A stretch of 30,410 bases of DNA from a virus: positions 1 to 30,410 of the IMG/VR virus record IMGVR_UViG_3300025168_000411; one strand, 5' to 3'. Positions 5,888-24,904 of the stretch are shown in pieces. Within the stretch, counting starts at the first letter, position 1. Each line of letters opens with the position of its first letter. The notes below the pieces were generated by a model. That model was not told the origin of the DNA. It saw only the letters and a list, made by a program, of their open reading frames with translations, and ran no database searches. Position numbers and translations under genes: made by a program.

Positions 5888-8800
5888 ATGGCAGACAAAG
5901 TAGAAGGATACGATTTACCAACAATACTTAATGAAAATTTAATGGCTCCAGAAGACGCTGTTAAAGGATACGATAAATCTATGCCGACTTCTTCGGATAT
6001 ATTTAATAGTATGTTAGCTCCTACGCAACAAGAAGTAAGTCAAGAAAGAGATGTTGACGATTACTTCAAGAGTGCTGCTCAGAGGGAATCAAGAGAAAAT
6101 TTAACACAAGGTTTAACAGAACCAATGAGAGGAGATGTTGAAACAGGAAGTTTATATATGACTGACCCTGACGCCGTTATGGGAGATGCTACTTCAGATT
6201 TCGGTAGAGCTATAAGAGCGGGTTGGGGAGATTTAGTTTACGGCACAGGAGATACGATAGATTTTGTTTCAGCTTTAGTTAATCCAAATGACCCAGACCC
6301 AAATACCGCTGTAGGAGATTGGTTAAAGAAGAAAGGAGAAGAGTTTCAAAACGAAAATCTTTTAATTATATCAGAAGACTTACAAGACGTAACATGGGCA
6401 GATATGTTTAAAGCTGAAATGTGGACCCATAAAGTAGCTAGACTTATACCATACGCAGCTTCCTTTATGATACCATATGGAGGAGGAGCTTTCGCTGCAG
6501 GTAGATTTGCTAGTTGGGCTGTAAAGGGGTTAAAAGTAAGTAAAATGGGAAGAATGGTAAGTACAACACACAAAGGTTCTAAAGTATCTAAATTATTATA
6601 TGGAACAAATGTAGTTGGAGGTTCTGGTATAACCAAACATCTTGCTATAGACGCTGGTAAACAAGGAGTAATCCTAACAAAAGGAGCTGAAACTGTTTCA
6701 AAAGCTATAGGTGGTGGTCTTGCAGCTAATACATTTGAAGGATTTTATTTAGGAGGGGAAACTTACAATCAAGCTATTAAAGATGGGTTAACTAAAGAAC
6801 AAGCAGCAAGTGCTGCGAGTGGAGTTGTTTGGGACAACTCTAAATGGGCGGCTGTGGATATAGTTCAATATGGGTTACTATTCGGAGGATTAGGTAAGAC
6901 TATGAATATAAATAGAGTAGCTAGACTAACTCCACAACCAATGGCTTTTAGTGCTAGTGTCGGAGGAGTTATAAAACCTTTAATACAAAGAGGTCTTATA
7001 AATTTACCTACAGCTGGTGTTTATGCGGGAATAGAAGGATTTACTGAAGGAGTACAAGAAACATATCAAGAATGGATTAAATATGCTAATCTACAAGAAG
7101 AAAAAGGGTTGGGATATGACTCTTATTCAAATTATCTAACTGAAGCAGACGGAACATTTACCGCAGAAGCAAGAGATATATTTTGGACATCTGTAGGATT
7201 AGGAGGAGCTATGGGTGGTACCAGAGGAGTAGTAGACGGAATCGCTGAAAGACAAAAAATGTTAGATGAAAAAATAGAGAAAACTGAACAACTAAGATTA
7301 TTATCTGAAGATGGAAGTTATTCAGAAGAATCATTGAGAGACTTTCAAAACCTATCTGACGAATTAGTTGCAGACCATATATGGAACTATAATGGAGACG
7401 GAAGTAATATGAAATCAGTTATAGAGCAACAAGTTAAAGATGGTAAATTAACGGAAGAAGGAATGGAGGGCGTATTTCAAACTATAGATAGAATGGTTGA
7501 AAACTATGAGAAACATTCTGTAAATACAACATTAACTGAATCAGGAGCTAAACAAGTTTTTTATAGAGAAAATAGATTAACTAGAAATACCTCACAACAA
7601 GAACAAGTAAAAGGAATATTTGAAGAAAAAAGAAAAAAGGTTAAAGAAAATGTTTCTAAAGAAAAACAACAAAGTAAACTGAACGACCTTAACATGGAAG
7701 AAAAGGCTACTTTAGAAGAATTAGAAAAAGAAGAAAATCAATTAAGAAACGAAATAGAAAACTTTTATTTACAAAAGGAAGAGGTAATGACCAAAAAAGG
7801 TGAGGTAGATAAAAGGTATAAATCTAGACTTACTTCCGATGAAATGGAAAAATACACACAGAAGGGAGAAAAAAGAATGAACGCTAAGGAAGCTAAAGAA
7901 GCTGGCATGTCTATAGAAGAATATAGAGAGTATAAGAAAAAAGAAGAAGGAAAAGGATTTTTAAGTAAAGCTTTTGATGCTATTAAAGGAGGAGTTAAAA
8001 AAGGAGCAGAACTAGGTAAAAAAGGAGTGCAAGCGGTTTCATCAGCAGCTAAAAAAGGAGTAGAATCTGTTCAAGAATTAAGAGGAAAAGATATTATTGA
8101 AAGTGCAAAAAAATTAACAAAAAAGAATGTTGTTGAAGCTGTTGATAGAACAGAAAGAATATTAAAGAAATCAAAAACTGCACAACAAATAAGAAAAGCT
8201 TTTACTGAGTTTAAAAAGAAAATGAAAGGGATGTCTGGTGTAAGTGTTGAAACCTATAAAAAAGCAGAAGAATATTTAAAAGGAAAGCAAGACGGAACAA
8301 TTACAGAGTCATACACGGAGTGGGCAAACAAACAGGGAGAAAGTAAAAAAAAAGCGGTAACTGAAAAAAAACAAGTAAAATTACCTGAAGAACCTAAATC
8401 CGAAGAGGTTCGTAAGAAAATTCCTATAAAAGAAAAGGTTAAAAAATTAGCTGAAGCTATAGTTAAAAAAGGCGGAGAGCTTATAGTAAAAGCTACATCT
8501 ATTGTTCCTACTAGTGGTGGTAATAGTTATATGATTACAGACAGTAAGGGAAGTACAATTAAATTTTATAATCAAAAAGGTAAGGTAGGAAATCAAACTA
8601 TAGATAATTTCTTAGCTAAATATATAAATCAAGATAGTGTAGATGTAAAAATAAAATTAATATTACCACAAGAAGGACAAGAGAATGTTGTAAATATAGA
8701 TGGTCAATTATTTTTTCAATTTAACAACAACCTTTATCAATATAAAATGGTTGCTGAGGTTGATGGTAATGTAATAGGAACTATAGAATATAGAGACTAT

Positions 8801-11800
8801 GCTGTTTTAGATGAAGATATAAAAAGAGCTAAAAAACCTACTAAAGTAAAAGAGAAAGTAAAACAAGTTAAAGAAAAGATTAAATCTATTTATGAAAAAA
8901 TAAAAACTAAAGTTAAAAAAGAAGACACTAAACCATCTAAAGATAATACATTTGAAAAGTATGATGGAGCTGTACCTAGAAGAAATCACGAAGTATATAC
9001 AAACGCTGGATTAGGAGAATATGTAATGTTACAAAGACTAATCAAAAAAGGATTAATACCAGCAGACCAAGCTTATATTTTGAGTGGTCAACTTTTAGAT
9101 TCTTTTGGAAATGAAGCAGTATCATTAGCTATAGGTAGCACATTATTAATATCAGAAGGAGGAACTATAGGTACAGATATTATACATGAAGGTGGTCATG
9201 TATGGTATAGAATGCAAGCTGAATCTCCACTAATTAAAAGAGTAAATAAATTATTAGTTGAATCAGATATATTTGATTTAACATCTATACAATATCCTGA
9301 ACTAACATTAATTGATGTAGGAGGAACTGTTATGACAGTAGGCACATTTGTAGAACTACAAAAAGGTATCATGAATAATAGTAACGAGGTTAAAAGTGAT
9401 ATTAAAGATATTATAACAAACATTATAAAAAATGAAGGAATAGACGATACTAAAACAGCAGAATTATATGTATCTCTTATTACACAACTTACTACAAAAA
9501 GAAGAGGAGGAGCTATAGCTAAAAAGTTATCTAACTTAGAACAAAAACATTTATTAGAAGAATCTTTCGTAAGAACATTAGAAGCTAATACTTATGGTAG
9601 TTTAAACTCTATTATAAAAAATAGTAAAGTTCAAAAACAACTAGAAAAAGATTTAGTTAAGTTTTATCAAGAAACTAAGAAACTTGCTACAGAAGAAGAA
9701 GCTAGGGAATTTTTGAATTTAGTAGACGATGTAATACCTACCCTTACACTAGACGCTGCAATGAAACACATACTCTTAAACTTCGGTAAAAAGGGAACTA
9801 TAGAAAATTCTGGATACGCTGAAATCAAACAAGCTAAAAAAGCAGCATTTAGAAAAGCTACAGAATATTCATTAGTTCATACATTCTTAAACTATGAGTT
9901 AGGTAAAGGATTAGAAGACGAACAAATTGCAGATAATGTAATTAAAAGAATAGATAAATCTGGATTAATTAATTCTAAATCTTTAAAACCTAAACAAAAG
10001 GAACAACTAAAACAATACATAAGAGCTGTTTTATATACAACTAATCCTAAGTATAAAAAGAATTTAGCTGGTAGTGATAAATTGTTAATAGAAGCAATAC
10101 TTAAAGAAAAAGGTATTGGTCTTAAATCTAAAGAAGGGGAACAACTTACAATACAATTTCAAGAAGAAGAGTTCAATGACGAAACTGATGTAAATTTAGC
10201 TCAGCAGCATAACGAAGAGTTAAAGAACATGAATATGCCTAAAACTCTTACTAACTTTTTTAAGGCAGTTGCAGAAATATACAATGTAAAACAAACAGAA
10301 TCTCCTTTTGAAAGAAAGAAGTTAATGTATCAATTATATAATCTTGCTAAGTCAGTTAGAAAAAATCCAGAAGACTTTATAAGAATGGTTAGAGAAAGCA
10401 AGTCTGTTGAAATAGAACAAATGCTTAGTATATTAGATAACAAAGTATTTGAAAATCAACATTATACAGATGCTAAGCTATTACAAATATCTAATATATT
10501 TCAAAGTATGGTAATTGAAAGATTACAGGGAGACATGTTACTTATAAAAGATGGTAAATATTTATGGAAAGACAACACCCTATTAAGTAGAACAACAGAA
10601 CAAAGCATTATAAGTAGAATGATAGATGGTTGGTCTAATCTTACAAAAGCAGAGCAGAAACAAAAAATAACTTCTTTAGAAAATATATATAATCAAGTGT
10701 CAGAAGATAATTATAGTGAAGGGTCTAAGCATAATGGTACGACAGCTATATTAGAAACCTTATTTAAAGATACAGATGGATGGGAAAGAGTTGATATAGA
10801 CGCTGTATTAAATGAAACAATTATATGGAATAATAAACCAATGTTTTTAACAGATGTGTTTTTTGATTCACAAGCAGGATTACAAGGAATTAATCTAAAG
10901 CATGGTAGATGGATGTTGTTTAACAAAAAAACAGAAAAGTGGACTACTAAAGTAAATGAACAAGCTCAAGCTTACGATTACACTAAAAATAATTTGCAGT
11001 CATTTAAAGAAGTTTTAAGAGAAGTTATGGTATTATCTAGACCTATGAACTATTTATCTATTGTAGACAATGTAACAGGTGATGGTATTAGTATATTTAA
11101 TAATAATAATTCATTACATAATCAAGCTTATGATTCAGTAGAACAAATATTAAGTGTAGATAAAAGAAAGAAAAGTATATTCAATCCTAAGAATAATATT
11201 TATTCTAAAATGATAGAGGAAAAAATGGAAATGGATATATTGTTTGATGGAAGAACTGGAGAAATACTAGATAATCCATTTGATATAAGTGTACACGCTG
11301 GAATGTATAGATATACTCCTGGTCAAGAATCTATAGAAAGATGGGATAATGGAGCAAAATCTATGACAGAAATAGACCCAACTGAAATGATGGCTATTGA
11401 TATGTATCATTTCTTAAATGCAGTACAAAAACAAAAAGGTGGAGAATCTGTTTTATATGACCAAGCTATTGGTACGTTCTCTGACAAAAGTAGAAGATAT
11501 TATGTTAAGTCTATTGCTATAACAGACGTAGCTAGTAGAAATAAAGTTCTAGGAACATTATATAATAATCCAGCATTAAAAGACAAGTATATAAAAGGTG
11601 GTGACGTGTTTCCTTATACTATTGTAAAAGATAAAAAAGGTAATTATCAAATCAAACAGATAGATGAGATTTATGATAATTTTGTATCAGAATTATATAT
11701 AACTCCTGAGTTATTAGAAAATAATAAAGCTTGGGAAAATAGTACAGTAGAACAACGTAAAAACTTTTTAATGAGTTATATATCTAATAAGTTTATGGCT

Positions 11801-14800
11801 CAACAATTATTAGGATACGACCATAAACAAGCTAAAGACGAAGTAGATTATATTAAAAGGTTAGCTGGTAGTATTGCTTCTCATACTACATATGACCATA
11901 ATACATCATTTGAACCTGTTATAATAAAAGACTATTATGTAGACAAAAAAGGCAATATATATACTGAAAGCGAAAGACCTAAAGATGTAGAAACATGGAT
12001 AGAAAATGACGCTGCTGGATATATACTACCACAACAGGCAAAAATAATTACAGAAAAATATGGTGGAGTTAAAGATGTAGGAGGTGTATACAAGTTTGTA
12101 TATAACTATAGGGGAGTAGATGGCAATACTACATATCTAAAATTTGCTGTACAAGTGTTAACCCCAGAAATGGAAAAAACAAGTGAAATACATAAAAATA
12201 TAGCTAATGTATTAAGAGAAAGAAATATAAGTATTGCAGATGTTACTATACCTAATTTAGAATATATAGATATGTTTGCTCATGGTCATCTTATAATAGC
12301 AGCTTCTGAATCATCAGCTAAATTATGGTTTGATGGAGTTAATGGTAAAAAAGGTAGTCAATATATATATGATGTAAGAAACCTTGACGAAATCAACTTA
12401 AATAATATATTAAATAAACAAGATGAATTATTTATAGAGGGAGATAAACTTGACTCTAATAGAGAGTTCAAAGGATTAAGCGGTAAGGGACTAGGAATAC
12501 AATTAGAATTAGACAAACAAAAAGATGAAAGATATTATCCGTCACAATTATTTTACAATTTAGCTAATAATATGAACTCCCCTAAAGATATGGGGATTCT
12601 TAATAGAATGTTAGAACTTCGTAAAAATGTAATGGAGAAATCTAATAAAGAAAGAAATCTTGATGAAGGAATGATTACATCTTCAGACTCTACAACTCAA
12701 GATGTATTTAATGAAATGGAAAGTTTTAAAGATTCTGTAGACCCAACAGTGTTTGGACAGTTAATTGCTTCTATGTTTGGTAATATAGACGGCAGATACC
12801 CTGCAATGAACTCTGTGTACAATTCTATATCTAATGGTAGGGTAGCTAAGAAAGGGACTAAAATGTATACAAAAGGAAGTATAGCTTATCAATCGTCTTC
12901 ATTAGGAATGGGATTAAAAGCTTTTGAAGAGACAACTATTGATGGTAAAAAGGTAGTAGTTTCAGAAGCTTATATTCCTGGTTATATGGAAAAGCAAGGA
13001 GTTAAGGTTGGAGATTTATTTTTAGGAACTAGAATACCATCTCACGGTAAAGTAAGTACAAGTGTATTTATGGTAAAAGGATTCCATGGACAATTAAAAG
13101 GAAGTCCTACATCTAAGATAACTATACCAGCAGAAGTTTCTGCATATTGGGGAGCCGATTTAGATGGAGATTCGGTTCACATGAACTTTAAATATAATAA
13201 AGATGAAATTAAAGGAGCTGATGATTGGAGAAATGATAGTAATAAGTTCTTTGATTTATATGTAGACTTAGTTAGTAGAGAAGATATAAGAAAAGAAATT
13301 ACAGCAAATATAGATTTTGTATCAGATGTAGAAAATGTAATTGGTAAAGAAAGACCAAAGGCAGAATCTCAATTAACTCCTGTAGGAGATTCTAAAGTAT
13401 TTAAAGAAAATGTTCCTACAAAAGCTCTTGTAGGTATTGTAGCTGCCTTACAAAGAAGTTTAAATATATTCTCTGCTAGTGGGGTTGAATTAGGATTTGA
13501 AGTAAATATAAACGGAAGAAAGGTAAATAAATTTTATGATAATAGAAATGAGGAAGGAGGCAAGGGTAACTGGTTTGGATTAGCTCAGTTACTTAATATA
13601 GTATTAGACAATGCTAAACACCAATATGCAGATAGACTAGGACTAAACGAACAATCTGTAGCAGGATTTGTAATGTTGAGAAGACTTGGATATTCCTTAC
13701 AACAAATTAAAGACATATACACATCTGATATAGTTCAAAAATATTTCCAATGGCAGAAAACAATAGATGGTAAAAGATTTGTTTCTTCTGATTCTACTAT
13801 ACAAGAATTACTAGGAATAAAAAAGAAACCTGGTAAAAAAAGTTCAGACTTTAAAAAATGGTTAGGCAAGCCACTAGGATTGACAAAAGAAGAAAATAAA
13901 ATTTTAACTCTTGTATATAATTTAGAACAATTTAATAAAGATGTAGCTCAGCCTGTAGGTAAAGCGTTTACAGTACACCAGTCTATTGAAAAGAATCCTT
14001 TAGAATTAAGAAGTACAATTAAAAAGATTGAGGACATTAGAAACGACCCTAAAAGAAATATGGGAGGTTTATTTGAAAACCCTATTCTAACACACGCTTT
14101 AGAATTATTTGATACTATGTTAGAAAGAGCTTCTGTAACAGATATAAGATATACTCCTTATATGCAATCTATAATGGAAGAAGCTTATAACGACAAGAAA
14201 GGATTGTTATTTAAATCACAATCAGAAAAAAATAAAATTGTAAATAAAATAATATCTGATAAGATGGTAGAAAATATGGTAGGTATTATTTTCCCTACAT
14301 CTACTAAAGGTGCGTTAATAAATGGACTAAAAGATATTATTAAATCTAAACCTGATAACAAGTTTATTAAATCTATTAAGATAGTTAAGAATAGTAAAGG
14401 TCGTGAGATTATAGTATTAAACAAAGAATTACTTAATGAATTTATTACAGAGTCAGAAATAAATGAAATCAGAAAAGACTTTAATGAATTAACAGAAAGA
14501 GAGCAAACTCTTATATTTAATATAGAGTACAAATTCTTTGATTTTGGATTTAAAGAAGAATCATTAACTCCTTTATTCTCTGATAAGTTTATAGAAAAGA
14601 TAAATGGATATATGGATAAAACCATTAAATCTATGCAAGAACCATCTAATTCGCAATTAAGTCCTATAGGAATTATTAGCACAATAGAAGATAAAATTAA
14701 AACAGAATCTCAAAGAGAATTTGATATTAATAAACAATTAGAAGAAAGAGCTAAACAAATTAAAGAAGAAGAAGATAATGTAGGTAAAATGACATTAGAA

Positions 14801-17710
14801 AATATAGAAGAAGAATCTATAATTTTAGGGAACAAGAAAACAATTAGTCATGGATATGACACCTATAACAATACAGGTTCTGATGTACCAAAACTAATTA
14901 AACCTGGTAATACATTAATAGTTATTAGTCCTCCTATAAAAAGAAATAGTATAGATGAGATTAATAATTTAGATACATGGGCTAAAAGTGAAGGATATGA
15001 TAACTTTGAAGATATTAAAGAAAATGGTAATAAATATCATAAATCATTTATTAAAGGAGAATCCCCTATATACATATATAAAATAAAGAATGTTTCTGCC
15101 GCTACAGAAGTTAAAAGAGCTAAGAAAGCATTTGATAGATACAATAGTGAAGGGGTGGAATATATGGATAGTAGCGATATGTTGTCATTTGATGAATGGT
15201 TAAATGATAAAGGAATTACTATACAATCTATAACAAAAGACAGTTTAATACACGCAAGACTAAAAGAAAGATATAGACAGTATGTTATTGACCACAATAT
15301 AGCAATAGACTTAGTAGAAGAAAGATTAACTAAAGAAGAGTTGCAAAAACATACTGATGAATATCTTTATGATGCAATGACTAAGTTAGATAAATTAGAT
15401 AGCTCCGCTACAAATAGAGCTAAACATTTAATTAGAACGGAAATAGCTCAAAGAGCTTTTGAAAAACAAACCAAATTTTTACAAGAAAAAGCAGATTTAC
15501 AAAACTATGATTTTCAAAAACCAGCTAAAAATGACGATATAAGTTGGTTAAGAAAATGGATGGGGTCTAATAATATGACATCTAAAAGACCAGAGATACA
15601 ATATATGATAAACGAAATAGAAAAAAACTATTATAATTATTTAGAAAGATATAGAATATATGCAAACGAAATCAATAGTGTACACGACAAACTAATAGAA
15701 TCTAAAATGTCTAGTGTTGGAGTAATTGAAAGAATGAAGGGTAAAATGAATATGTCTGAAAGATATGAAAAGCTATATGGTAATATTACAAATAGAAGTA
15801 AAGGAGGAAGAATTGTAATGATATCTACAGAAGAAATGAACGAAAAAAGAGATTCAGTTAGTCAAGAAGAATATGATTATTGGAATTTATATCGTGAGAT
15901 GAATAATAAATTTGGAAATATTATTAATCAAGAAAGAGGAGAAAATATTAAAAATATACAAATGGGAGACTTAGAAATGTTTTCTAAAGAAGGATTGTTT
16001 GGTCTTTATGATATGAGAATGGGTAAAAATATGCATGTAGATAATGTTAAATTGTATTTAGATATTAATGGAACTCAAGTATTAATGTCCTTAAGCAGTA
16101 TTAGAACTTATTTAAAAAGTGCTGGTACATCTAAAGAAAGAATTGCTAATGTAGCTTTATTAGAGAAATTAAAACATAAAGCAACTAATTTAAAAAAGAA
16201 AGGAATAAACGAAGATGGAAGTAAAATAACTTTAACTGATGCTGAAATAGACGCTTTATTAAATGATGGAGACGCTATTACAAAAATGGCTGAAGGAGTA
16301 CCTCCAGATAAATTAAGTGACGCTGATAAAGCTTTAATAGAAGAATATAAAAGAAGACAGTCTACAGAATTTGAACATATGTCAATGGATTTAAATGGAG
16401 CTTTATTAGAATATGTTAGAGGAACCTTATTTAAACATGGAGATGTTATAAGAGATGCTTATGGTAATTCTATAAACTTACAAGAAAATCCATTTGTAGG
16501 GATGAAAAATATGTCTGTATTAGTAGATTCAATTATTCAATTTAATAAAGAAAATGGAAATCAAAATGCTGCTGAATATTTAACTAGATGGTGGAAAGAA
16601 TCATTCTTAGAAAAGAAAGAAAGAAAGTTAAATACAGCTGAAAAAATATTAGATTGGATAGTTAGACTAACTACATTAAGATTTATAGGATTTAATCCAT
16701 GGGTAGCTCTTGGAAATATTTTAGCTGGTAAATATCAAGAACTACGTAAACGTGGAGGGAAACAATTTATATTAGGTGAAAAAAGATTCTTTAAAGATTG
16801 GAGCTACTCTCAAGAAATATTAAAGAAACATAGAATAATTGAATATAGCTTTAGTGATTTTGTGCACATGGATAATAAAAAAGGAGCTTTTGGAAAGATA
16901 GAAAGATTATCTTTTATGTTTATGGATAAATCAGAAAACTATATACAAGGAACTGCTTTCTTAGGAATGTTAACAGAAGAAGAATATAAGTCTGGTGAAA
17001 TATCACAAGAACGTGTAAGGCAAATTAACCACAAAATTTCTACATTACATGGTGAAGGATATACAGCATTAGATGCTAGAATGTTAGGTACTTATGCTTT
17101 AGGTAGAGCTATGTTACAATTTAAGAAATGGTTCTATACATTAGTAGGAGATAGATTCCAACAAAGAGATATAGATAGATTTGGTGAGGTACAAACAGGT
17201 AGTTATACTACAGCAGGTGGATACGTTCAAAGTTTATGGGGGAAAATGATTAATGGAGAAATTTCTATGCAGTCATTTAAAGAAGAATATAATAAACTAG
17301 AAATAGACCAACAAAAAGAAATGGGAGCTTTAATAAGAGGAATAGGATTAGCTGGAATTGTATCTTTACTAATATTATTATTAGATGATGATGATGATAG
17401 TGACGATATAATAATTAGAAGTCTTAAAGGGTTAAGTAAAGATATTAATATAATGACAGATTATAATAGATTTATAAATTATACTATTATTCCTTCAAGT
17501 TTTGGTACAGCTCAAAATATAGGTAATACTGTTAATTATGTTATTAGTGGAGAAGAGCAAAAGAAAGATTCTTATTTAGCAGAAAAAGGAACTCCTAAAT
17601 GGAAATCAGAATTGAAATATGATGTATCTCCATTTGGTCAATCTCATAAAGAACTAAGAAAATTAATGTATAGTGGCGAATCTGAAAAAGAAATACCAAT
17701 AATACGATAA
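5888..17710 (+). CDS. Giant polyvalent virion protein with zincin and single-chain multisubunit-type RNA polymerase core (3,940 aa)
   Basis: Layout by residue: hydrophobic and Gly-rich segments (~184-215 and ~270-460) that could be membrane-active; coiled coil (~570-690); Lys/Gly amphipathic repeats (~690-780); a Lys-rich hinge (~978-1018); zincin motif HEGGH (1100-1104) with a possible third ligand in EESFVRTLE (E1224/E1225); a long helical region; an RNA polymerase core with GDKLDSNREFKG (K2187, K2195), LGTRIPSHG (R2382) and GADLDGD (D2424/2426/2428); a possible bridge-helix-like segment near D2574; a possible PUA/ASCH-like module (~2978-3065); and a C-terminal hydrophobic helix (~3811-3832) followed by five Asp. 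The two-barrel order matches YonO and crAss-like virion polymerases. It probably enters the cell with the DNA and makes early transcripts. The polymerase call rests on two catalytic motifs; membrane and virion roles are inferred from position. Confidence 0.85.
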   Translation: MADKVEGYDLPTILNENLMAPEDAVKGYDKSMPTSSDIFNSMLAPTQQEVSQERDVDDYFKSAAQRESRENLTQGLTEPMRGDVETGSLYMTDPDAVMGDATSDFGRAIRAGWGDLVYGTGDTIDFVSALVNPNDPDPNTAVGDWLKKKGEEFQNENLLIISEDLQDVTWADMFKAEMWTHKVARLIPYAASFMIPYGGGAFAAGRFASWAVKGLKVSKMGRMVSTTHKGSKVSKLLYGTNVVGGSGITKHLAIDAGKQGVILTKGAETVSKAIGGGLAANTFEGFYLGGETYNQAIKDGLTKEQAASAASGVVWDNSKWAAVDIVQYGLLFGGLGKTMNINRVARLTPQPMAFSASVGGVIKPLIQRGLINLPTAGVYAGIEGFTEGVQETYQEWIKYANLQEEKGLGYDSYSNYLTEADGTFTAEARDIFWTSVGLGGAMGGTRGVVDGIAERQKMLDEKIEKTEQLRLLSEDGSYSEESLRDFQNLSDELVADHIWNYNGDGSNMKSVIEQQVKDGKLTEEGMEGVFQTIDRMVENYEKHSVNTTLTESGAKQVFYRENRLTRNTSQQEQVKGIFEEKRKKVKENVSKEKQQSKLNDLNMEEKATLEELEKEENQLRNEIENFYLQKEEVMTKKGEVDKRYKSRLTSDEMEKYTQKGEKRMNAKEAKEAGMSIEEYREYKKKEEGKGFLSKAFDAIKGGVKKGAELGKKGVQAVSSAAKKGVESVQELRGKDIIESAKKLTKKNVVEAVDRTERILKKSKTAQQIRKAFTEFKKKMKGMSGVSVETYKKAEEYLKGKQDGTITESYTEWANKQGESKKKAVTEKKQVKLPEEPKSEEVRKKIPIKEKVKKLAEAIVKKGGELIVKATSIVPTSGGNSYMITDSKGSTIKFYNQKGKVGNQTIDNFLAKYINQDSVDVKIKLILPQEGQENVVNIDGQLFFQFNNNLYQYKMVAEVDGNVIGTIEYRDYAVLDEDIKRAKKPTKVKEKVKQVKEKIKSIYEKIKTKVKKEDTKPSKDNTFEKYDGAVPRRNHEVYTNAGLGEYVMLQRLIKKGLIPADQAYILSGQLLDSFGNEAVSLAIGSTLLISEGGTIGTDIIHEGGHVWYRMQAESPLIKRVNKLLVESDIFDLTSIQYPELTLIDVGGTVMTVGTFVELQKGIMNNSNEVKSDIKDIITNIIKNEGIDDTKTAELYVSLITQLTTKRRGGAIAKKLSNLEQKHLLEESFVRTLEANTYGSLNSIIKNSKVQKQLEKDLVKFYQETKKLATEEEAREFLNLVDDVIPTLTLDAAMKHILLNFGKKGTIENSGYAEIKQAKKAAFRKATEYSLVHTFLNYELGKGLEDEQIADNVIKRIDKSGLINSKSLKPKQKEQLKQYIRAVLYTTNPKYKKNLAGSDKLLIEAILKEKGIGLKSKEGEQLTIQFQEEEFNDETDVNLAQQHNEELKNMNMPKTLTNFFKAVAEIYNVKQTESPFERKKLMYQLYNLAKSVRKNPEDFIRMVRESKSVEIEQMLSILDNKVFENQHYTDAKLLQISNIFQSMVIERLQGDMLLIKDGKYLWKDNTLLSRTTEQSIISRMIDGWSNLTKAEQKQKITSLENIYNQVSEDNYSEGSKHNGTTAILETLFKDTDGWERVDIDAVLNETIIWNNKPMFLTDVFFDSQAGLQGINLKHGRWMLFNKKTEKWTTKVNEQAQAYDYTKNNLQSFKEVLREVMVLSRPMNYLSIVDNVTGDGISIFNNNNSLHNQAYDSVEQILSVDKRKKSIFNPKNNIYSKMIEEKMEMDILFDGRTGEILDNPFDISVHAGMYRYTPGQESIERWDNGAKSMTEIDPTEMMAIDMYHFLNAVQKQKGGESVLYDQAIGTFSDKSRRYYVKSIAITDVASRNKVLGTLYNNPALKDKYIKGGDVFPYTIVKDKKGNYQIKQIDEIYDNFVSELYITPELLENNKAWENSTVEQRKNFLMSYISNKFMAQQLLGYDHKQAKDEVDYIKRLAGSIASHTTYDHNTSFEPVIIKDYYVDKKGNIYTESERPKDVETWIENDAAGYILPQQAKIITEKYGGVKDVGGVYKFVYNYRGVDGNTTYLKFAVQVLTPEMEKTSEIHKNIANVLRERNISIADVTIPNLEYIDMFAHGHLIIAASESSAKLWFDGVNGKKGSQYIYDVRNLDEINLNNILNKQDELFIEGDKLDSNREFKGLSGKGLGIQLELDKQKDERYYPSQLFYNLANNMNSPKDMGILNRMLELRKNVMEKSNKERNLDEGMITSSDSTTQDVFNEMESFKDSVDPTVFGQLIASMFGNIDGRYPAMNSVYNSISNGRVAKKGTKMYTKGSIAYQSSSLGMGLKAFEETTIDGKKVVVSEAYIPGYMEKQGVKVGDLFLGTRIPSHGKVSTSVFMVKGFHGQLKGSPTSKITIPAEVSAYWGADLDGDSVHMNFKYNKDEIKGADDWRNDSNKFFDLYVDLVSREDIRKEITANIDFVSDVENVIGKERPKAESQLTPVGDSKVFKENVPTKALVGIVAALQRSLNIFSASGVELGFEVNINGRKVNKFYDNRNEEGGKGNWFGLAQLLNIVLDNAKHQYADRLGLNEQSVAGFVMLRRLGYSLQQIKDIYTSDIVQKYFQWQKTIDGKRFVSSDSTIQELLGIKKKPGKKSSDFKKWLGKPLGLTKEENKILTLVYNLEQFNKDVAQPVGKAFTVHQSIEKNPLELRSTIKKIEDIRNDPKRNMGGLFENPILTHALELFDTMLERASVTDIRYTPYMQSIMEEAYNDKKGLLFKSQSEKNKIVNKIISDKMVENMVGIIFPTSTKGALINGLKDIIKSKPDNKFIKSIKIVKNSKGREIIVLNKELLNEFITESEINEIRKDFNELTEREQTLIFNIEYKFFDFGFKEESLTPLFSDKFIEKINGYMDKTIKSMQEPSNSQLSPIGIISTIEDKIKTESQREFDINKQLEERAKQIKEEEDNVGKMTLENIEEESIILGNKKTISHGYDTYNNTGSDVPKLIKPGNTLIVISPPIKRNSIDEINNLDTWAKSEGYDNFEDIKENGNKYHKSFIKGESPIYIYKIKNVSAATEVKRAKKAFDRYNSEGVEYMDSSDMLSFDEWLNDKGITIQSITKDSLIHARLKERYRQYVIDHNIAIDLVEERLTKEELQKHTDEYLYDAMTKLDKLDSSATNRAKHLIRTEIAQRAFEKQTKFLQEKADLQNYDFQKPAKNDDISWLRKWMGSNNMTSKRPEIQYMINEIEKNYYNYLERYRIYANEINSVHDKLIESKMSSVGVIERMKGKMNMSERYEKLYGNITNRSKGGRIVMISTEEMNEKRDSVSQEEYDYWNLYREMNNKFGNIINQERGENIKNIQMGDLEMFSKEGLFGLYDMRMGKNMHVDNVKLYLDINGTQVLMSLSSIRTYLKSAGTSKERIANVALLEKLKHKATNLKKKGINEDGSKITLTDAEIDALLNDGDAITKMAEGVPPDKLSDADKALIEEYKRRQSTEFEHMSMDLNGALLEYVRGTLFKHGDVIRDAYGNSINLQENPFVGMKNMSVLVDSIIQFNKENGNQNAAEYLTRWWKESFLEKKERKLNTAEKILDWIVRLTTLRFIGFNPWVALGNILAGKYQELRKRGGKQFILGEKRFFKDWSYSQEILKKHRIIEYSFSDFVHMDNKKGAFGKIERLSFMFMDKSENYIQGTAFLGMLTEEEYKSGEISQERVRQINHKISTLHGEGYTALDARMLGTYALGRAMLQFKKWFYTLVGDRFQQRDIDRFGEVQTGSYTTAGGYVQSLWGKMINGEISMQSFKEEYNKLEIDQQKEMGALIRGIGLAGIVSLLILLLDDDDDSDDIIIRSLKGLSKDINIMTDYNRFINYTIIPSSFGTAQNIGNTVNYVISGEEQKKDSYLAEKGTPKWKSELKYDVSPFGQSHKELRKLMYSGESEKEIPIIR
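9185..9586 (+). other. Zincin-like metallopeptidase motif inside the giant protein
   Basis: Codons for IIHEGGHVWYRM place H1100, E1101 and H1104 as the HExxH zinc and catalytic residues, in a helix preceded by a beta strand. About 120 residues on, HLLEESFVRTLEANTYG supplies glutamates that could be the third zinc ligand. Zincin domains of this sort are known in phage polyvalent proteins. It may process the giant protein itself or attack host proteins after entry; the target cannot be read from sequence. Confidence 0.65.
12440..13189 (+). other. Two double-psi beta-barrel catalytic motifs of a multisubunit-type RNA polymerase
   Basis: The first motif, GDK-x7-KG, has the same Lys-Lys spacing (+8) as the beta-subunit barrel of bacterial RNA polymerase (GDKMAGRHGNKG in E. 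coli beta). The second, 229 residues after K2195, reads YWGADLDGDSVHMNF against beta' YNADFDGDQMAVHV; its three Asp (2424, 2426, 2428) would bind the catalytic Mg. Between them LGTRIPSHGKVSTSVFMV resembles beta' LNRAPTLHRLGIQAF. Order (Lys barrel, then Asp barrel, one chain) is that of YonO and related single-chain enzymes. Activity is untested. Confidence 0.82.
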
Positions 17711-19350: not shown

Positions 19351-19673
19351 TGACAAAAGAATTAAACGAAGACACTACGTTCAGAATGAGCATAAAGACA
19401 ATGGGAATGATAGCAGCTGGTATTGTTGTTGTAGTAGGAGGATGGTATTCTCTTATGTCTGAAATACAAGAAGCAAAAGAAAAGCCAGTGCCTGTAGATG
19501 TTACAATAATCAAAGAAGAGATTTTAAAAGAAATTCCAGAAGCTGAGATTACCAGAATGGAATTTGACATGAAAGACCAAATGATTAGACAAACTATTAT
19601 CACCACTCAAGGAGATATAGAAGAAATGAAAAAGACTCTTGAAAAGATAGAGGATAAGTTATATAATAGATGA
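19350..19673 (+). CDS. Membrane-anchored coiled-coil protein (107 aa)
   Basis: A short N-terminal tail (MTKELNEDTTFRMSIKTM) leads into one membrane helix (MGMIAAGIVVVVGGWYSLM, about residues 17-37), then a long charged helix that reads as a coiled coil (DIEEMKKTLEKIEDKLYNR at the end). The likely topology is N-in with the coil in the periplasm. An inner-membrane spanin (Rz-like) has this layout, and no other spanin candidate stands out, but there is no sequence motif to prove it. It overlaps both neighbours by four bases or fewer, so it is part of a coupled run with the 69-aa membrane protein and the thioredoxin-fold protein. Confidence 0.6.
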   Translation: MTKELNEDTTFRMSIKTMGMIAAGIVVVVGGWYSLMSEIQEAKEKPVPVDVTIIKEEILKEIPEAEITRMEFDMKDQMIRQTIITTQGDIEEMKKTLEKIEDKLYNR

Positions 19674-20020
19674 AGCCTCTTTATAAGATATGGACAGCTT
19701 ATATATTAATTATTATATTTATGATAATAGCTGGCACATCTTTTGGACAAGTGGTGGTAACTCATTTTAATGCTAGCTGGAATAACCATAATAAAGCAGA
19801 CTGGGTAGACTCGTTAACAGATTGTGAAATAACGTATGTTGATATATCTAAAAGTCCTAAGATACAAAAAAGATATAAGATAACAGTTGTACCTACAGTT
19901 CTTATATTTAAAGATGGAGAAGAAATATATAGATTTGAATCAGACGTGAGTTTTAAATTAATAGCTACAAGAAAAGAGTTGCAGGAGTATATTAACGAAT
20001 TGATAAAAGATAGATATTAA
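19670..20020 (+). CDS. Secreted thioredoxin-fold protein lacking the catalytic cysteines (116 aa)
   Basis: A signal peptide occupies residues 1-26 (hydrophobic IWTAYILIIIFMIIAGTSFG) with Gln27 directly after the predicted cleavage. The rest follows thioredoxin closely: VVVTHFNASWNNHNK aligns with the E. coli active-site strand and loop (FWAEWCGPCK), DISKSPKIQKRYKITVVPT gives the family's cis-Pro loop (P75), followed by VLIFKDGEEIYRF. Both CxxC cysteines are Asn here (N38 and N41, loop W-N-N-H-N-K), so it cannot do disulfide chemistry in the usual way. It probably acts as a periplasmic binding or scaffold protein; one Cys remains at position 52. It overlaps the coiled-coil membrane gene by 4 bp and abuts the LamG-like gene. 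Fold call is strong, role unknown. Confidence 0.7.
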   Translation: MKPLYKIWTAYILIIIFMIIAGTSFGQVVVTHFNASWNNHNKADWVDSLTDCEITYVDISKSPKIQKRYKITVVPTVLIFKDGEEIYRFESDVSFKLIATRKELQEYINELIKDRY

Positions 20021-20833: not shown

Positions 20834-21892
20834 ATGAAAAAATTATTATTATATATATTTTTAATATTAACAAATATAGTTAATGCTCAAATTTTAAAAT
20901 ATTCTACATTTTATGTGTCTGGAAATATAGAATCTCCATTAGTAGAACAAGATAACTACATGATGGATAGAGTAACTGGTCAATTAACTGATTTAACAAT
21001 CATTAATCCTTATAATTATGAGATTAACATAGGATTAAGAAAAATAGCAAGATTTGATTATGAAAATAAAGCTAAAAGGTTTTATGATGGTTCTGAAAAT
21101 ACTATCAGTAGTAATGCTAGTATTGGTGCTGTTACTGGTGGCGAGTATTTATTATCCTGTAGTTTTATTCGTGATAGGGGTAGAGAATTTACTAACCACG
21201 AATACTGGTACAGACACGTAGGTAAATACTTTTTAGTTAAAGGAGAGTATACAGACAATCAAGAAATAAAACTAAAAACATTTGGAGGTGATGTAAGAGG
21301 TAAAATTAGTTTTAGTGGATTTGATTTATCTGCTGGGGTTAAACATAGAACACATCCAGTGTATGGATTAAATCCATTTACAGAGAACTATGATTTAGAA
21401 ACAGACCCTTGGTGGAATGTAGCTTATGACCTAGGGTACACTGATGAATATTATTATGTCGATGGAGAGAGTAACGGTGTTGATGATTGGTATGATTATT
21501 ATAATTGGCATTGGTTTGCCCCAGATGGCACACAAGTTGCTTTAACAGACCAAGAGTTTATGAAATATGAGTTTGGTAAAGCTGTAGACCAATATAACAA
21601 ACAACAATTAGATAGTTTAGGATTACAACAAGAATTATCAGCTGTTATAGGACTATCTTATTATTACTATAATCCTAAATTCTGGATACACACTTGGGGA
21701 GATGTTATGCCGAAACATAAAGGATTGTCAGAGTATTCTTACACTGAAGATAATATAGATTTTGATATAGGAGGAGTTATAGGGACTAAAATAACGAAAA
21801 GAATAGGTATATTTGTAGAAGGAAGATGGAGACGTTATTGGGATATAGATAATTATGAATTTAAAACAGGTATTAATTATATAATAAAATAA
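20834..21892 (+). CDS. Exported outer-membrane beta-barrel-like protein (352 aa)
   Basis: The N-terminus MKKLLLYIFLILTNIVNAQ is a clear type I signal peptide with the A-Q cleavage context common in Bacteroidota. The mature part is made of amphipathic Tyr/Phe/Trp-rich strands (e.g. YEINIGLRKIARFDYENKAK, GKISFSGFDLSAGVKHRTH, LSAVIGLSYYYYNPKFWIHT) with short turns, and ends with paired strands (GIFVEGRWRRYWDIDNYEF, KTGINYIIK) as in outer-membrane barrels, although the last residue is Lys rather than Phe. A phage-coded barrel could alter the infected cell's surface (superinfection exclusion or receptor masking) or help breach the outer membrane at lysis. It overlaps the next small gene by TAATG. 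No specific family recognised. Confidence 0.6.
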   Translation: MKKLLLYIFLILTNIVNAQILKYSTFYVSGNIESPLVEQDNYMMDRVTGQLTDLTIINPYNYEINIGLRKIARFDYENKAKRFYDGSENTISSNASIGAVTGGEYLLSCSFIRDRGREFTNHEYWYRHVGKYFLVKGEYTDNQEIKLKTFGGDVRGKISFSGFDLSAGVKHRTHPVYGLNPFTENYDLETDPWWNVAYDLGYTDEYYYVDGESNGVDDWYDYYNWHWFAPDGTQVALTDQEFMKYEFGKAVDQYNKQQLDSLGLQQELSAVIGLSYYYYNPKFWIHTWGDVMPKHKGLSEYSYTEDNIDFDIGGVIGTKITKRIGIFVEGRWRRYWDIDNYEFKTGINYIIK

Positions 21893-22047
21893 TGCCTGAA
21901 GAAAAGAAATCAGAAGGATTAGGTGATACGTTACAGAAAGTTATTACAAGAAGTGGCGTAACTAAGTATGTAAAAATAATAAGTGAAGACTGTGGTTGTG
22001 ATAAAAGAAGAAAAAAATTAAATAAATTATTTCCTTATAAAAAATGA
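21892..22047 (+). CDS. Small CGC-motif protein (51 aa)
   Basis: ATG overlaps the stop of the barrel-like gene (TAATG at 21890-21894), and the 51-codon frame ends at 22047, overlapping the ATG of the 232-aa gene by four bases. The product is basic: an N-terminal Gly-Leu-Gly-Asp-Thr helix, then EDCGCDKRRKKLNKLFPYKK. The CGC-x-x-R-x-x-x-LNKLFP pattern recalls a small conserved protein often found in phages of aquatic bacteria. The two Cys could bind a metal or another protein. Coupling to both neighbours supports it as a real gene; function unknown. Confidence 0.55.
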   Translation: MPEEKKSEGLGDTLQKVITRSGVTKYVKIISEDCGCDKRRKKLNKLFPYKK

Positions 22048-22742
22048 GTTACCAATACGAATCTAAGGATAAAATATTAATGTCAGAATCTTCTGTATGG
22101 GCAGCTGAACATCAATGGTGTATATGCGCTGTATGGACAGACAGTATTTGTAGAGGATACAGAAATAACACTGCTCCAGGTTGGTATGACACTAGTTGGT
22201 TATGTCAAGATGACCCTAATCAATGGTGGCCAAGAGCTTTTGCTCATCCAGGGAATCCCTTAAACCCATTATACCCTTCTAATTATGATGCGTTTTATCA
22301 TTATATTGTATCTCAAATTGGACCAATTAATGTAGGGGACCAAATAGTTTTTGATACACAGCCATATAATTACGCTAGTTGTAGTTTAGGAGGTGTGTGT
22401 GGAATTACAAAATTATGTTTTGTATATAAAGGTCATTATTATATGAACCCACAAACATATACAACTTTAGGAGCCCCTCCTAGTAATCCTGTTCCAGGAT
22501 ACGACATACATAAAGGTCCTTGTTGTGAATCATTTCCTAATACATCTGTAAAAACAAGTTGGGATTGTGTGCAAATCGGAAACCATCCAAAATTTGGATA
22601 CAAGTGTGTAGAAATACAGGGCTCTGGAGGACAGTATCCTACAAAAGCAGATTGTATTAACTCTCCTTGCAGTCAAGCAGCTCCATTAAATCCTGATGCA
22701 GGAATGCCAGGAGCAGGAGGAACATTAAACCCAACACCTTAA
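22044..22742 (+). CDS. Cys/Trp/Pro-rich extracellular-type protein, paralogue 1 (232 aa)
   Basis: The composition is strikingly unlike the neighbours: many Cys, Trp, Pro, Gly and Tyr, few Lys/Glu. It aligns over most of its length with the following 371-aa protein: YIVSQIGPINVGDQIVF against WAVTEVGPINIGDKIEW, KLCFVYKGHYY against KICLEYLGRHY, and a C-terminal Cys module (TSWDCVQIGNHPKFGYKCVE then GQYPTKADCINSPC) that is nearly identical. The module resembles short disulfide-linked repeats seen in phage and environmental virus surface proteins. No signal peptide is visible, so it is probably a virion component. A tail-tip or adhesin role is likely but inferred. It ends in a Pro/Gly tail (GMPGAGGTLNPTP). 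Confidence 0.55.
   Translation: MSYQYESKDKILMSESSVWAAEHQWCICAVWTDSICRGYRNNTAPGWYDTSWLCQDDPNQWWPRAFAHPGNPLNPLYPSNYDAFYHYIVSQIGPINVGDQIVFDTQPYNYASCSLGGVCGITKLCFVYKGHYYMNPQTYTTLGAPPSNPVPGYDIHKGPCCESFPNTSVKTSWDCVQIGNHPKFGYKCVEIQGSGGQYPTKADCINSPCSQAAPLNPDAGMPGAGGTLNPTP
22653..22685 (+). repeat. Duplicated segment, copy A
   Basis: These 33 bases match 23613-23645 with one difference; the last 24 are identical. They code for the INSPCSQAAP end of the Cys module in the first paralogue. The near-identity at DNA level, including synonymous sites, points to recent duplication or ongoing gene conversion between the pair. Confidence 0.85.
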
Positions 22743-22745
22743 GAT

Positions 22746-23861
22746 ATGGAATTTAAAGAAGATTATTACGATTGTGGTCATCCAGACTCTCCAGGACCTA
22801 AACATATATGGGATAGTCCTGGATATAATAAAAAGAATCCACCACAAAATTATTGGGGATTACATATGTGGAGAGTTTGTAATCACTATAATATATCTAT
22901 GGTTGGTTATACTCCATCAACATGGACTGGACAACCTACATGTGATTGGCCTGGGGTAAACACTTACACTCCTAATACTGTAGGTCCTTTTTATTTTTGG
23001 GGGACACCAGGATGCCAAAGGTATTGGAATGGAGCGGGTTGGTCTTTTAATGTAACAGCTCCTACTCCAAGTGGGTACATACCACTAAATGAATATCCTT
23101 TTCCAAATTATTTTTATGATTGGGCAGTTACTGAAGTAGGTCCAATAAACATAGGAGATAAGATAGAATGGAATTGTTGCGAACAACAAGACCCATATAT
23201 AAGTAAAAAAGGTACACCTCCAACTGGTGAATTTCCAACCCCCTTTTGTGTAAATAATACTATCGGAGGCTCAGGTTCAGGAAATAAAATATGTTTAGAA
23301 TATTTAGGTAGACATTATATAGGGGGTCATCCTATGATACCACCAGGACCTCCGAATTGGGGGCTTCCAACACCACAACCTTGGCCTATTTATATAGGAC
23401 AATATTATTGGGGAGGAACTTTTATGACAACAAGTGTAATGAGTGCTACTGTATATTCAATGAAAAATTATCCAGAAGAAAATCCAACATGTTGTAAAAA
23501 CTTTGAACATGATACATCATGGGACTGTGTACAGATAGGAGACCACCCTAAGTTTGGTCATAAATGTGTAGAGATATATGGAATATCAGGCCAATATGAA
23601 ACAAAACAAGAATGTATTAATTCTCCTTGCAGTCAAGCAGCTCCACCAGACCCAGGAATGCCAGGCTTAGGAGGATTTAATCCAGTTACAGGTGGTGGTG
23701 GTGGAGAAATAGATGATAAAAGACCTCCTAGTGGAGGAGGTGAAGTAGGTGATGGTGGTGGTGAAATAGGTTATGGTGGTGGTGGTGATACTAACCCTAC
23801 ATTTGGGGATTATGATGATGGAAAAGGAAGTGGTGGAGAAGGAAGTGATGGAAAGTATTAG
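22746..23861 (+). CDS. Cys/Trp/Pro-rich extracellular-type protein, paralogue 2, with Gly-rich tail (371 aa)
   Basis: Tandem paralogue of the 232-aa protein, three bases downstream. It is longer at the front (Trp/Pro/Tyr-rich N-terminal ~110 residues) and in the centre (a Pro/Gly-rich insert around GGHPMIPPGPPNWGLPTPQP), and shares the terminal Cys module (TSWDCVQIGDHPKFGHKCVE, QECINSPCSQAAP). After the module comes an unstructured tail made almost only of Gly, Asp and Glu (GGGGGEIDDKRPPSGGGEVG and on), coded by GGT/GGA tracts. Such tails are often flexible linkers or sites of recombination. No signal peptide. Probably arose by duplication of the neighbour followed by expansion. Surface binding is a reasonable guess only. 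Confidence 0.55.
   Translation: MEFKEDYYDCGHPDSPGPKHIWDSPGYNKKNPPQNYWGLHMWRVCNHYNISMVGYTPSTWTGQPTCDWPGVNTYTPNTVGPFYFWGTPGCQRYWNGAGWSFNVTAPTPSGYIPLNEYPFPNYFYDWAVTEVGPINIGDKIEWNCCEQQDPYISKKGTPPTGEFPTPFCVNNTIGGSGSGNKICLEYLGRHYIGGHPMIPPGPPNWGLPTPQPWPIYIGQYYWGGTFMTTSVMSATVYSMKNYPEENPTCCKNFEHDTSWDCVQIGDHPKFGHKCVEIYGISGQYETKQECINSPCSQAAPPDPGMPGLGGFNPVTGGGGGEIDDKRPPSGGGEVGDGGGEIGYGGGGDTNPTFGDYDDGKGSGGEGSDGKY
23613..23645 (+). repeat. Duplicated segment, copy B
   Basis: Second copy of the 33-base segment, in the same place in the Cys module of the 371-aa paralogue. It is a direct repeat about 960 bases from copy A and could allow homologous recombination that deletes or fuses the pair. Confidence 0.85.
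23691..23787 (+). repeat. GGT-triplet-rich low-complexity tract
   Basis: Three runs of GGT triplets (three to four in a row) are separated by GAAATA-like spacers and code for the Gly-rich tail of the 371-aa protein. The stretch is locally G-rich in an otherwise AT-rich genome and is prone to slippage, so tail length may vary between isolates. Confidence 0.7.
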
Positions 23862-23894: not shown

Positions 23895-24290
23895 ATGAGT
23901 ATATTAGGAACAATATTTAGCGGAGGTGCAAAAGACCTTGTAGAAGGTGTAGGTGGAGTTATAGACAATCTACATACATCTAAAGAAGAAAAATTAGAAG
24001 CAGAACAAAAAATAAAAGAGTTGGTTGCTTCGTATCAAAACACATTAGAAAAAGAAATTTCTAGTAGATGGGAGTCAGACATGAAATCTGATTCTTGGTT
24101 ATCAAAAAATGTTAGACCAATGGTATTGATATTTTTAGTAATATCTACAGTATTATTAATCTTTATTGACGCAGGAGTTATTAACTTTGTAGTAGAAGCA
24201 AAGTGGACCGATTTATTACAACTAGTATTAATAACAGTGATTGGAGCATATTTTGGTGGTAGGTCACTAGAAAAAACTAAGAAAAAATGA
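23895..24290 (+). CDS. Phage holin, 3TM gene-transfer-agent type (131 aa)
   Basis: The N-terminal half is a soluble amphipathic helix region (AKDLVEGVGGVIDNLHTSKE, then EEKLEAEQKIKEL), followed by a conserved-looking SWLSKNVRPMVLIFLVISTV membrane segment, a second hydrophobic segment (VLLIFIDAGVINFVV) and a third (LLQLVLITVIGAYFGGRSLE), ending in basic residues EKTKKK. Order, the N-x-R-P motif before the first helix and the Y-x-G-R-S-x-E-K end fit the holin family with three membrane segments first described in gene transfer agents. It forms the inner-membrane lesion at lysis. It overlaps the endolysin gene by four bases (ATGA), making a standard lysis pair. Preceded by a 33-base AT-rich spacer with no clear promoter. 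Confidence 0.8.
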   Translation: MSILGTIFSGGAKDLVEGVGGVIDNLHTSKEEKLEAEQKIKELVASYQNTLEKEISSRWESDMKSDSWLSKNVRPMVLIFLVISTVLLIFIDAGVINFVVEAKWTDLLQLVLITVIGAYFGGRSLEKTKKK

Positions 24291-24904
24291 CAAAAGTATA
24301 TTATAGAGAGTTGATTCATAAAGCTATGTTAGAAAAAGGTTATAAATACTTTACTAATGATAATTACGATGTAAATATTATAGGAGTAAGAAATTCTAAC
24401 ACTAATAGTAAGGTTACAAATAAATTTGATGATATAATGACTATATCATATAAAAGTGAAAATGGTGAATGGCAATATCATGAATATGATTGTACTACAG
24501 ACCCTGGTGATGATTGGATGGAAAATCCATGGATAGATAAAATAGGGTGTGCGGTATTAAAACCTGGACAATATAGAGGTTCTCATAAACTCAGATTGCA
24601 TGGTGGTAAGTATTTAGCATTAGGCCAAAAGAAACCTGTAACAGTTTATAGAGATAATAATAGAAATGATAAATATGAGTTTGACGAATCGTCTTGTGAT
24701 ACAGGAGTATTTGGAATCAACATACACAGAGCAACAGCCTTAGAGGGAGAAACCTCTACACGTGTAAATAAATGGTCAGCAGGATGTCAGGTAATAGCAT
24801 CTAATGACGATTGGCATGAATTTTTAAACATATGTCAAACAGCTAGGGAAATATGGGGAAATTCCTTTTCTTACACTCTTTTAGAAAGTAAAGATTTAAT
24901 ATAA
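24287..24904 (+). CDS. Putative endolysin, YkuD/L,D-transpeptidase-like (205 aa)
   Basis: The core motif is FGINIHRA (H147) followed, 17 residues after the His, by VNKWSAGCQVI (S164, C167): the H...SxGC arrangement of L,D-transpeptidase-like (YkuD) folds, where the Cys is the nucleophile. Proteins with this GINIHR...SAGCQV signature occur as phage peptidoglycan-cleaving enzymes. The upstream HEYDCTTDPGDDW and LKPGQYRGSHKLRLHGG strands fit the same family. There is no signal peptide, so it would need the adjacent holin to reach the wall; the gene starts inside the holin's stop (ATGA) and ends on the next ATG (TAATG). Lytic action (cutting) rather than cross-linking is inferred from the lysis context. 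Confidence 0.7.
   Translation: MTKVYYRELIHKAMLEKGYKYFTNDNYDVNIIGVRNSNTNSKVTNKFDDIMTISYKSENGEWQYHEYDCTTDPGDDWMENPWIDKIGCAVLKPGQYRGSHKLRLHGGKYLALGQKKPVTVYRDNNRNDKYEFDESSCDTGVFGINIHRATALEGETSTRVNKWSAGCQVIASNDDWHEFLNICQTAREIWGNSFSYTLLESKDLI

Follow-up and report, generated by a model that had tools for sequence, protein, structure and literature searches.

Two tandem cysteine-rich paralogues beside the holin gene of an uncultured virus: a possible exchangeable surface-protein cassette

The gene pair and its cysteine module

A 30,410-nucleotide stretch of DNA from a marine virus of bacteria (IMG/VR record IMGVR_UViG_3300025168_000411, positions 1 to 30,410), referred to here as the window, carries two adjacent genes, A and B, that encode proteins rich in cysteine, tryptophan and proline. 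They are separated by 3 bases. BLASTP aligns residues 72-231 of A with residues 113-314 of B (100 bits, E 1e-29, 80 of 210 positions identical), which bears out the tandem paralogues of a preliminary description made from the sequence of the window. The near-identical terminal cysteine module reported there was also found: from TSW to SQAAP, 36 of 44 positions are the same in A and B when counted on the sequences, and the cysteines of both follow the spacing C-x12-C-x15-C-x4-C.

The regions that precede the module, here called heads, have in common the motifs GPINVGDQI (A)/GPINIGDKI (B) and KLCFVY (A)/KICLEY (B). In profile searches from which the module had been removed and which covered 2.8 Mb of partly redundant loci, the head-A profile recovered B proteins with whole-sequence E values of 3.6e-4 to 0.012 and single-domain E values of 0.02 to 0.1; conversely, A proteins were recovered by the head-B profile with E values of 1.4e-4 to 6e-3. 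As judged from these profiles the two heads are related to each other, their first part being barely alignable, such that the full-length common scaffold of the preliminary description was a bit strongly worded. In the head of A, five cysteines (C28, C113, C125, C160 and C161) are invariant in five aligned sequences.

The composition of the pair (A/B: Cys 5.6%/3.8%, Trp 3.4%/3.8%, Pro 10.3%/11.9%) had been said to set it apart from all neighbours. This is true of proline and tryptophan, which amount to 0.8-5.7% and 0-2.9% across the remaining 18 forward genes whose composition was measured, and less so of cysteine, which reaches 3.9% and 3.5% in nearby genes of 51 and 85 residues. The three largest forward genes (1197, 722 and 3940 residues) have no cysteine; the last of these lies at 5888-17710 of the window. 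Neither A nor B has the hydrophobic N-terminus of a signal peptide, as had been noted earlier. The best mean Kyte-Doolittle value over 10 residues within the first 35 is 1.41 in A and -1.18 in B, compared with 2.88 and 3.73 in two upstream genes with a signal-peptide-like start.

Family searches with the complete proteins yielded little. Pfam DUF2510 (PF10708) matches residues 86-108 of B with E 1.4e-4 and 22 bits, just below the cut-off of 24. PHROG matches to A begin at E 0.29, and the NCBIfam scan of the pair, in which the sorting domain of the type IX secretion system (T9SS) was sought, gave nothing up to E 1; TIGR04183 was not found in the window. No paper dealing with the module or the pair by title or abstract was found, in a search with thin coverage of the subscription literature that is no proof of their being unpublished.

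Gene content of the slot upstream of the holin

The pair occupies a slot, defined as the stretch between the 51-residue gene and the holin gene (Table 1). In the scans made, the pair, a head or the module was found in 10 IMG/VR contigs, which are fragments with possible assembly errors. In tblastn searches with both proteins no relative of the pair was found among 50,697 named phage records (INPHARED) up to E 0.1.

The slot differs in content from contig to contig. It holds A and B in the window, L003 and L004, and in L002 A, B and a third gene of 430 residues with the same module. Other contigs have a single gene in this place: a 393-residue gene of the third type in L012; a 596-residue gene in L011 that combines the GPIN head with another domain and the module; a 465-residue gene with a different head in L010, where the end of the contig cuts the upstream side; and a diverged A in L013 and L125, the head of which recurs in L124 and L126. 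In L015 and L077 the slot is empty and the neighbouring gene is directly followed by the holin (94% and 77% identical holins). The third-type gene of L002 and L012 appears propeller-like by eye, which is not claimed here; L010, L011 and L012 gave no Pfam match up to E 10.

Identity to the window was measured in seven relatives, wherever the gene was present. It amounts to 88-95% for the holin, 80-94% for a phosphoesterase, 71-94% for the 51-residue gene, 33-84% for head-bearing A proteins, 66-75% for B and 36-49% for genes of 132, 148 and 194 residues. In L002 and L003, gene A is 84% identical, the holin and the endolysin-type gene 91-92%. Rapid point evolution peculiar to the pair was therefore rejected, since other neighbours diverge as much, and what marks the slot is the turnover of whole genes rather than the speed of point change. 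The rapidly changing locus of the preliminary description survives in this sense, through changes in gene content and one crossover, and less as point divergence.

The crossover lies in the last third of the module. Before the breakpoint, gene B of L003 matches gene B of L002 at 27 of 29 informative sites; after it, the match is to the third gene of L002 at 21 of 25 sites. None of 20,000 permutations reached the observed largest-contrast statistic (p 5e-5), a test that is quoted instead of a Fisher p that rested on a breakpoint picked by eye. The small gene located 3' of B in L003 is that located 3' of the third gene in L002. The simplest account of these sequences would be a single recombination event that joined the module of B to that of the third gene and thereby deleted the head of the latter.

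Of the genes around the slot, the endolysin-type gene is replaced by a different gene after the holin in L010 and L011. The 51-residue gene, which encodes a CGC-x2-R motif, was dropped as a member of the cassette. It also occurs beyond this lineage, with unrelated neighbours, in 3 of 26 wider loci (L097, L117 and L122 of L097-L122); the search pattern had no match in the remaining 23. The outer-membrane-protein-like gene was seen in five slot-bearing relatives, at 31-36% identity. It has relatives in at least 547 IMG/VR stretches and none, at E values up to 1e-3, in named phages, and in many contigs the next gene is another cysteine-rich one with a signal-peptide-like start. Contigs L208-L210, which carry a relative of this gene and come from metagenome-assembled genomes (MAGs) of Woesearchaeota and Nitrosopelagicus, are probably misbinned phage contigs. 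A thioredoxin-fold protein with a signal-peptide-like start (window 19670-20020, L003 2347-2697) scores 23.6 bits with Pfam Thioredoxin (cut-off 23.5). Its CxxC site reads NNHN in the window and NNPN in L003, and with both active cysteines changed to asparagine it cannot be a usual redox enzyme.

Table 1. Features of the window in and around the slot
Feature	Position	Strand	Remarks
Outer-membrane-protein-like gene	20834..21892	+	352 residues; signal-peptide-like start; upstream of the slot
51-residue gene (...SEDCGCDKRRKKLNKLFPYKK)	21892..22047	+	bounds the slot upstream; identity 90-94% in four relatives and 71% in two others
Gene A	22044..22742	+	232 residues; head followed by C-terminal Cys module and a short tail rich in Pro; signal peptide absent
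Head of A	22101..22541	+	about residues 20-166; W-C-I-C, GPINVGDQI, KLCFVYKG, GPCC
Cys module of A	22554..22670	+	residues 171-209, TSWDC...SPC
Pro/Gly-rich tail of A	22671..22739	+	seen in the sequence
Gene B	22746..23861	+	371 residues; paralogue of A; longer head, long Gly-rich tail
Head of B	22836..23510	+	about residues 31-255; GPINIGDKI, KICLEYLGRHY, CC
Cys module of B	23514..23630	+	residues 257-295, TSWDC...SPC
Gly-rich low-complexity tail of B	23631..23858	+	length and sequence vary among relatives
Holin	23895..24290	+	downstream edge of the slot; PHROG 3427, E 4e-31; 88-95% identical in seven relatives
Probable endolysin-type gene	24287..24904	+	after the holin; PHROG 3000 (function unknown), E 2e-32; endolysin PHROG, E 2e-12

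The module family in phages and Flavobacteriales

Relatives of the module, for which the preliminary description had proposed a search and the absence of which would have counted against it, were found in other phages and in Flavobacteriales. A DNA pattern of the bacterial type picked out 32 stretches in IMG/VR, of which 25, several of them near copies, contain the module in 26 open reading frames; the other 7 matches were unconfirmed by profile. Among the phage module proteins with a complete 5' end, a hydrophobic N-terminus was seen in 0 of 16 when read from the first methionine and in 3 of 16 from a later one. Three of the 11 phage module proteins scanned (L269, L276 and L289, the first two being relatives of each other) match PHROG 14478, 'virion structural protein', with E values below 1e-100; the pair itself has no match to it up to E 1. 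These three belong to the same module family, and L269 and L276 are likewise without a signal peptide (the 5' end of L289 is cut). They differ from the pair in being very long, with 3 to 11 modules, and in that neither a GPIN head nor a small slot beside a holin was found. A phage protein in L282 has two modules and a GPIN-like head recognised by eye (profile E just 0.29 to 0.84).

Other phage proteins seen in these contigs are described for completeness. Some are very rich in cysteine (L024 321-4139, L274 1793-4831, L284 6310-9544, L289 1187-11590), with up to 112 cysteines in 1272 residues (L024) and 11 modules (L289); some 5' ends are cut, and there appears to be a whole class of such proteins in marine phages. 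The module proteins of L265, L280 and L290 have an end that we take to resemble a Hint/intein end. Proteins of 700-900 residues with GC[TM]D-x-NY repeats (L003 2697-5375, L013 16-2358, L077 4218-6554, L021 3195-5378), not seen in the window, have signal-peptide-like starts and, by eye, a T9SS-like C-terminal stretch. From their look they were considered as T9SS cargo, which NCBIfam did not confirm up to E 1 for the one tested, L003.

In bacteria, 395 genomes from the order to which a Flavobacteriales MAG belongs were searched with a profile built from phage modules only, which gave 3 weak matches. Two of these, those other than L227, were read and clearly contain the module, which occurs twice in a lipoprotein-like protein and, in the second case, lies in a 660-residue frame. 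After two bacterial rows had been added, the profile matched 63 of the 395 genomes, many of them several times, the two donors of the rows being included in the count. In a control, the order of a Maricaulis MAG, 5 of 393 genomes were matched, all in frames of 22-65 residues and judged by this length alone. The assignment of both sets to their orders rests on two MAG contigs. A scan of genome contigs with the long-loop module yielded 19 stretches, none of which was confirmed.

Thirty bacterial loci were fetched, of which the 15 with a match on the + strand were read; 10 of these, among them the apparent near copies L239 and L241, were scanned for T9SS. Eight of the 10 scanned proteins pass the cut-off of the T9SS type A sorting domain. 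A hydrophobic N-terminus is present in 4 of the 6 proteins with a complete 5' end when read from the first methionine and in 5 when any of the first four is allowed; the sixth has a lipoprotein-like signal that begins before the first methionine. The exported proteins (e.g. L228/L229, L232, L257) have the four cysteines in register with those of the pair, together with S-[WYF]-x-C and G-[QT]-Y-x5-C-x3/4-C. In contrast to A and B, most combine a signal peptide with a T9SS sorting domain, and the loop from the first to the second cysteine measures 4 to about 9 residues as opposed to 12; long-loop forms in L280 and L284 bridge the two. The four cysteines, one glycine and the tyrosine are invariant in 10 mixed phage and bacterial rows, and the four cysteines in all 39 phage modules; the rows were chosen by pattern or profile, which makes the invariance of the cysteines partly one by construction.

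An AlphaFold2 model of the module, based on 39 sequences, predicts a beta-beta-alpha arrangement (mean predicted local distance difference test, pLDDT, 76.1; predicted template-modelling score 0.48). The model of protein A, with a mean pLDDT of 41.6, was unused for the fold search. Foldseek gave nothing significant with the module model, the top row being TdPI (E 4.2), which we take to be a tick inhibitor of the Kunitz type. VIA-align gave Z values of at least 2 for 5 of 48 chains, all of them Kunitz-type inhibitors (two by title, three TdPI), with Z values of 2.2-2.5, which is noise level, and root-mean-square deviations of 3.5-4.5 over 36-38 residues. Kunitz inhibitors are characterised by [FY]-x5-C-x3/4-C and a beta-hairpin followed by a C-terminal helix, features that the predicted module has as well; they differ from it by having six cysteines in three disulfides as against four conserved cysteines. 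The CC that precedes the module is absent in several members of the family. None of the 39 modules matches PF00014 up to E 1. A Kunitz-like fold is a weak lead from the model and not a finding. Pfam otherwise listed four families for the 39 modules, each for one member (best E 0.017, DUF7478). In profile searches of PDB sequences, alignment A10 gave no match better than E 4.7 and alignments A1 and A3 gave none; a match of alignment A6 to RPB3 (E 0.01) was taken as chance in view of the Trp/Pro/Asn-rich sequence.

Possible roles of the pair

The virus may be a distantly crAss-like virus of Bacteroidota. This is suggested by a related 56-kb contig (L003 + L296), in which terminase, portal and major head genes lie upstream, and in which the portal and head proteins distantly match mainly uncultured 'cr' phages and phages of Bacteroides and Flavobacterium (28-32% identical among the matches shown). 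The 'cr' records are presumably crAss-like; the affinity is drawn without a tree and from portal and capsid genes outside the window. The pair itself differs from PhicrAss001 and other crAss-like phages in lacking, at the threshold given above, a relative among named phage records.

In the reading that we favour, and to which we assign about an even chance, A and B are late genes that together make up an exchangeable cassette for surface proteins, which are probably borne by the virion and meet the host or its surroundings. The module proteins of other phages and the gene order point to a location in the virion; T7-like phages are known for a fibre gene immediately ahead of the holin. The exchange of heads suggests contact with the host, in an adhesin or receptor role. 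The host would be a flavobacterium and the genes would be expressed late. The conserved cysteines and the exported relatives argue for disulfides, as do those reported to stabilise the tail barrel and the fibre hubs in the PhicrAss001 virion (PMC10172136). Adhesins of gut Bacteroidota phages are reported (PMC13370021) to be modular, with Ig-like, BACON and PKD domains, and to bind epithelium when displayed on another phage. The pair would resemble them as modular surface proteins with exchangeable domains and differs in that no Ig-like or BACON domain was found in it.

Each protein would consist of three parts, namely a head that varies at the N-terminus, a small beta-beta-alpha module with four cysteines, and a flexible tail of Pro and Gly, and would be synthesised in the cytoplasm around lysis, without an export signal. 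The cysteines would pair at virion maturation or on leaving the cell. As the DNA of the module is alike in every copy, it would provide a homologous joint that makes the heads exchangeable, and heads of the GPIN type, of the third type found in the 393- and 430-residue proteins, and others would come and go and be recombined from one phage to another. The same module family occurs in exported proteins of marine flavobacteria, which are the likely hosts. The virion proteins and host-recognition locus envisaged in the preliminary description are in this way partly supported and made more specific, as an exchangeable cassette on a common cysteine joint.

Several points weigh against a virion-borne cassette. 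Genes beside a holin could also be lysis-time products. Neither A nor B matches a tail or fibre family in Pfam, PHROG or NCBIfam, and the PHROG 14478 matches come from other phages, which, as far as their sequences tell, have the module in common with the pair and not the heads. A tblastn search with one phage and two bacterial modules detected the module in none of the 50,697 INPHARED records, Flavobacterium phages included. Gene A has 13 cysteines in the window, 11 in L002 and L003 and 12 in L013; an odd number makes intrachain pairing of all cysteines impossible, and in the window, L002 and L003 one would expect either a free thiol or an interchain bond. Genes elsewhere around the slot have diverged to the same degree or further. 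Genome contigs that hold a relative of the outer-membrane-like gene, six in all, point to no single host, being binned as Woesearchaeota (2), Nitrosopelagicus (1), Flavobacteriales (1) and Maricaulis (2).

Lysis genes directly downstream of the pair would also suit proteins that are released at lysis or displayed on the dying host, as decoys or extracellular inhibitors freed by the holin and the endolysin-type gene, an account that we consider unlikely, if worth weighing. It is favoured by the signal-peptide-like starts of the two upstream genes, outer-membrane-like and thioredoxin-like, by the empty slot in L015 and L077 and by the fact that all five chains with a VIA-align Z of at least 2 are protease inhibitors, although with Z values no higher than noise. 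Members of the same module family are virion structural proteins elsewhere, which argues against release at lysis, and without an export signal there is no known route to surface display before lysis.

The same low probability applies to A and B as ordinary minor decoration proteins of the tail or head, with no part in the choice of host and with neutral turnover. Many virion decorations are dispensable, and the slot can indeed be empty; however, heads that change as a whole while the joint stays are the pattern of recognition proteins, with which neutrality is still compatible. Very unlikely are cytoplasmic zinc- or iron-binding proteins for the takeover of the host cell, for which the missing signal peptide, the CC, C-x-C and C-x4-C pairs and the frequency of orphan families among phage takeover proteins might speak, but the full set of module cysteines, four in number, is preserved in the exported proteins of bacteria, a class in which disulfides are usual, and the Trp/Pro/Gly-rich composition, the long Gly tail and the place beside lysis genes do not fit.

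An extension of the cassette reading, improbable as it stands, is that marine flavobacteria and their phages use one small disulfide module, maybe a reduced Kunitz-like fold, as a common surface currency, which the host would employ in exported proteins and which in the phages, unexported, would serve as the joint for shuffling of recognition heads by homologous recombination and would also engage or imitate the surface layer of the host.

The pair raises a question that can be tested, namely how a phage can make proteins rich in cysteine that are not exported; the crassvirus structure already shows that disulfides form in virions. If the exchangeable surface-protein cassette is real, the module would offer a small, common marker with which host-recognition cassettes could be found in uncultured marine phages that lack annotated tail fibres, and the slot would provide a direct case of the exchange of recognition heads by recombination through a conserved joint.

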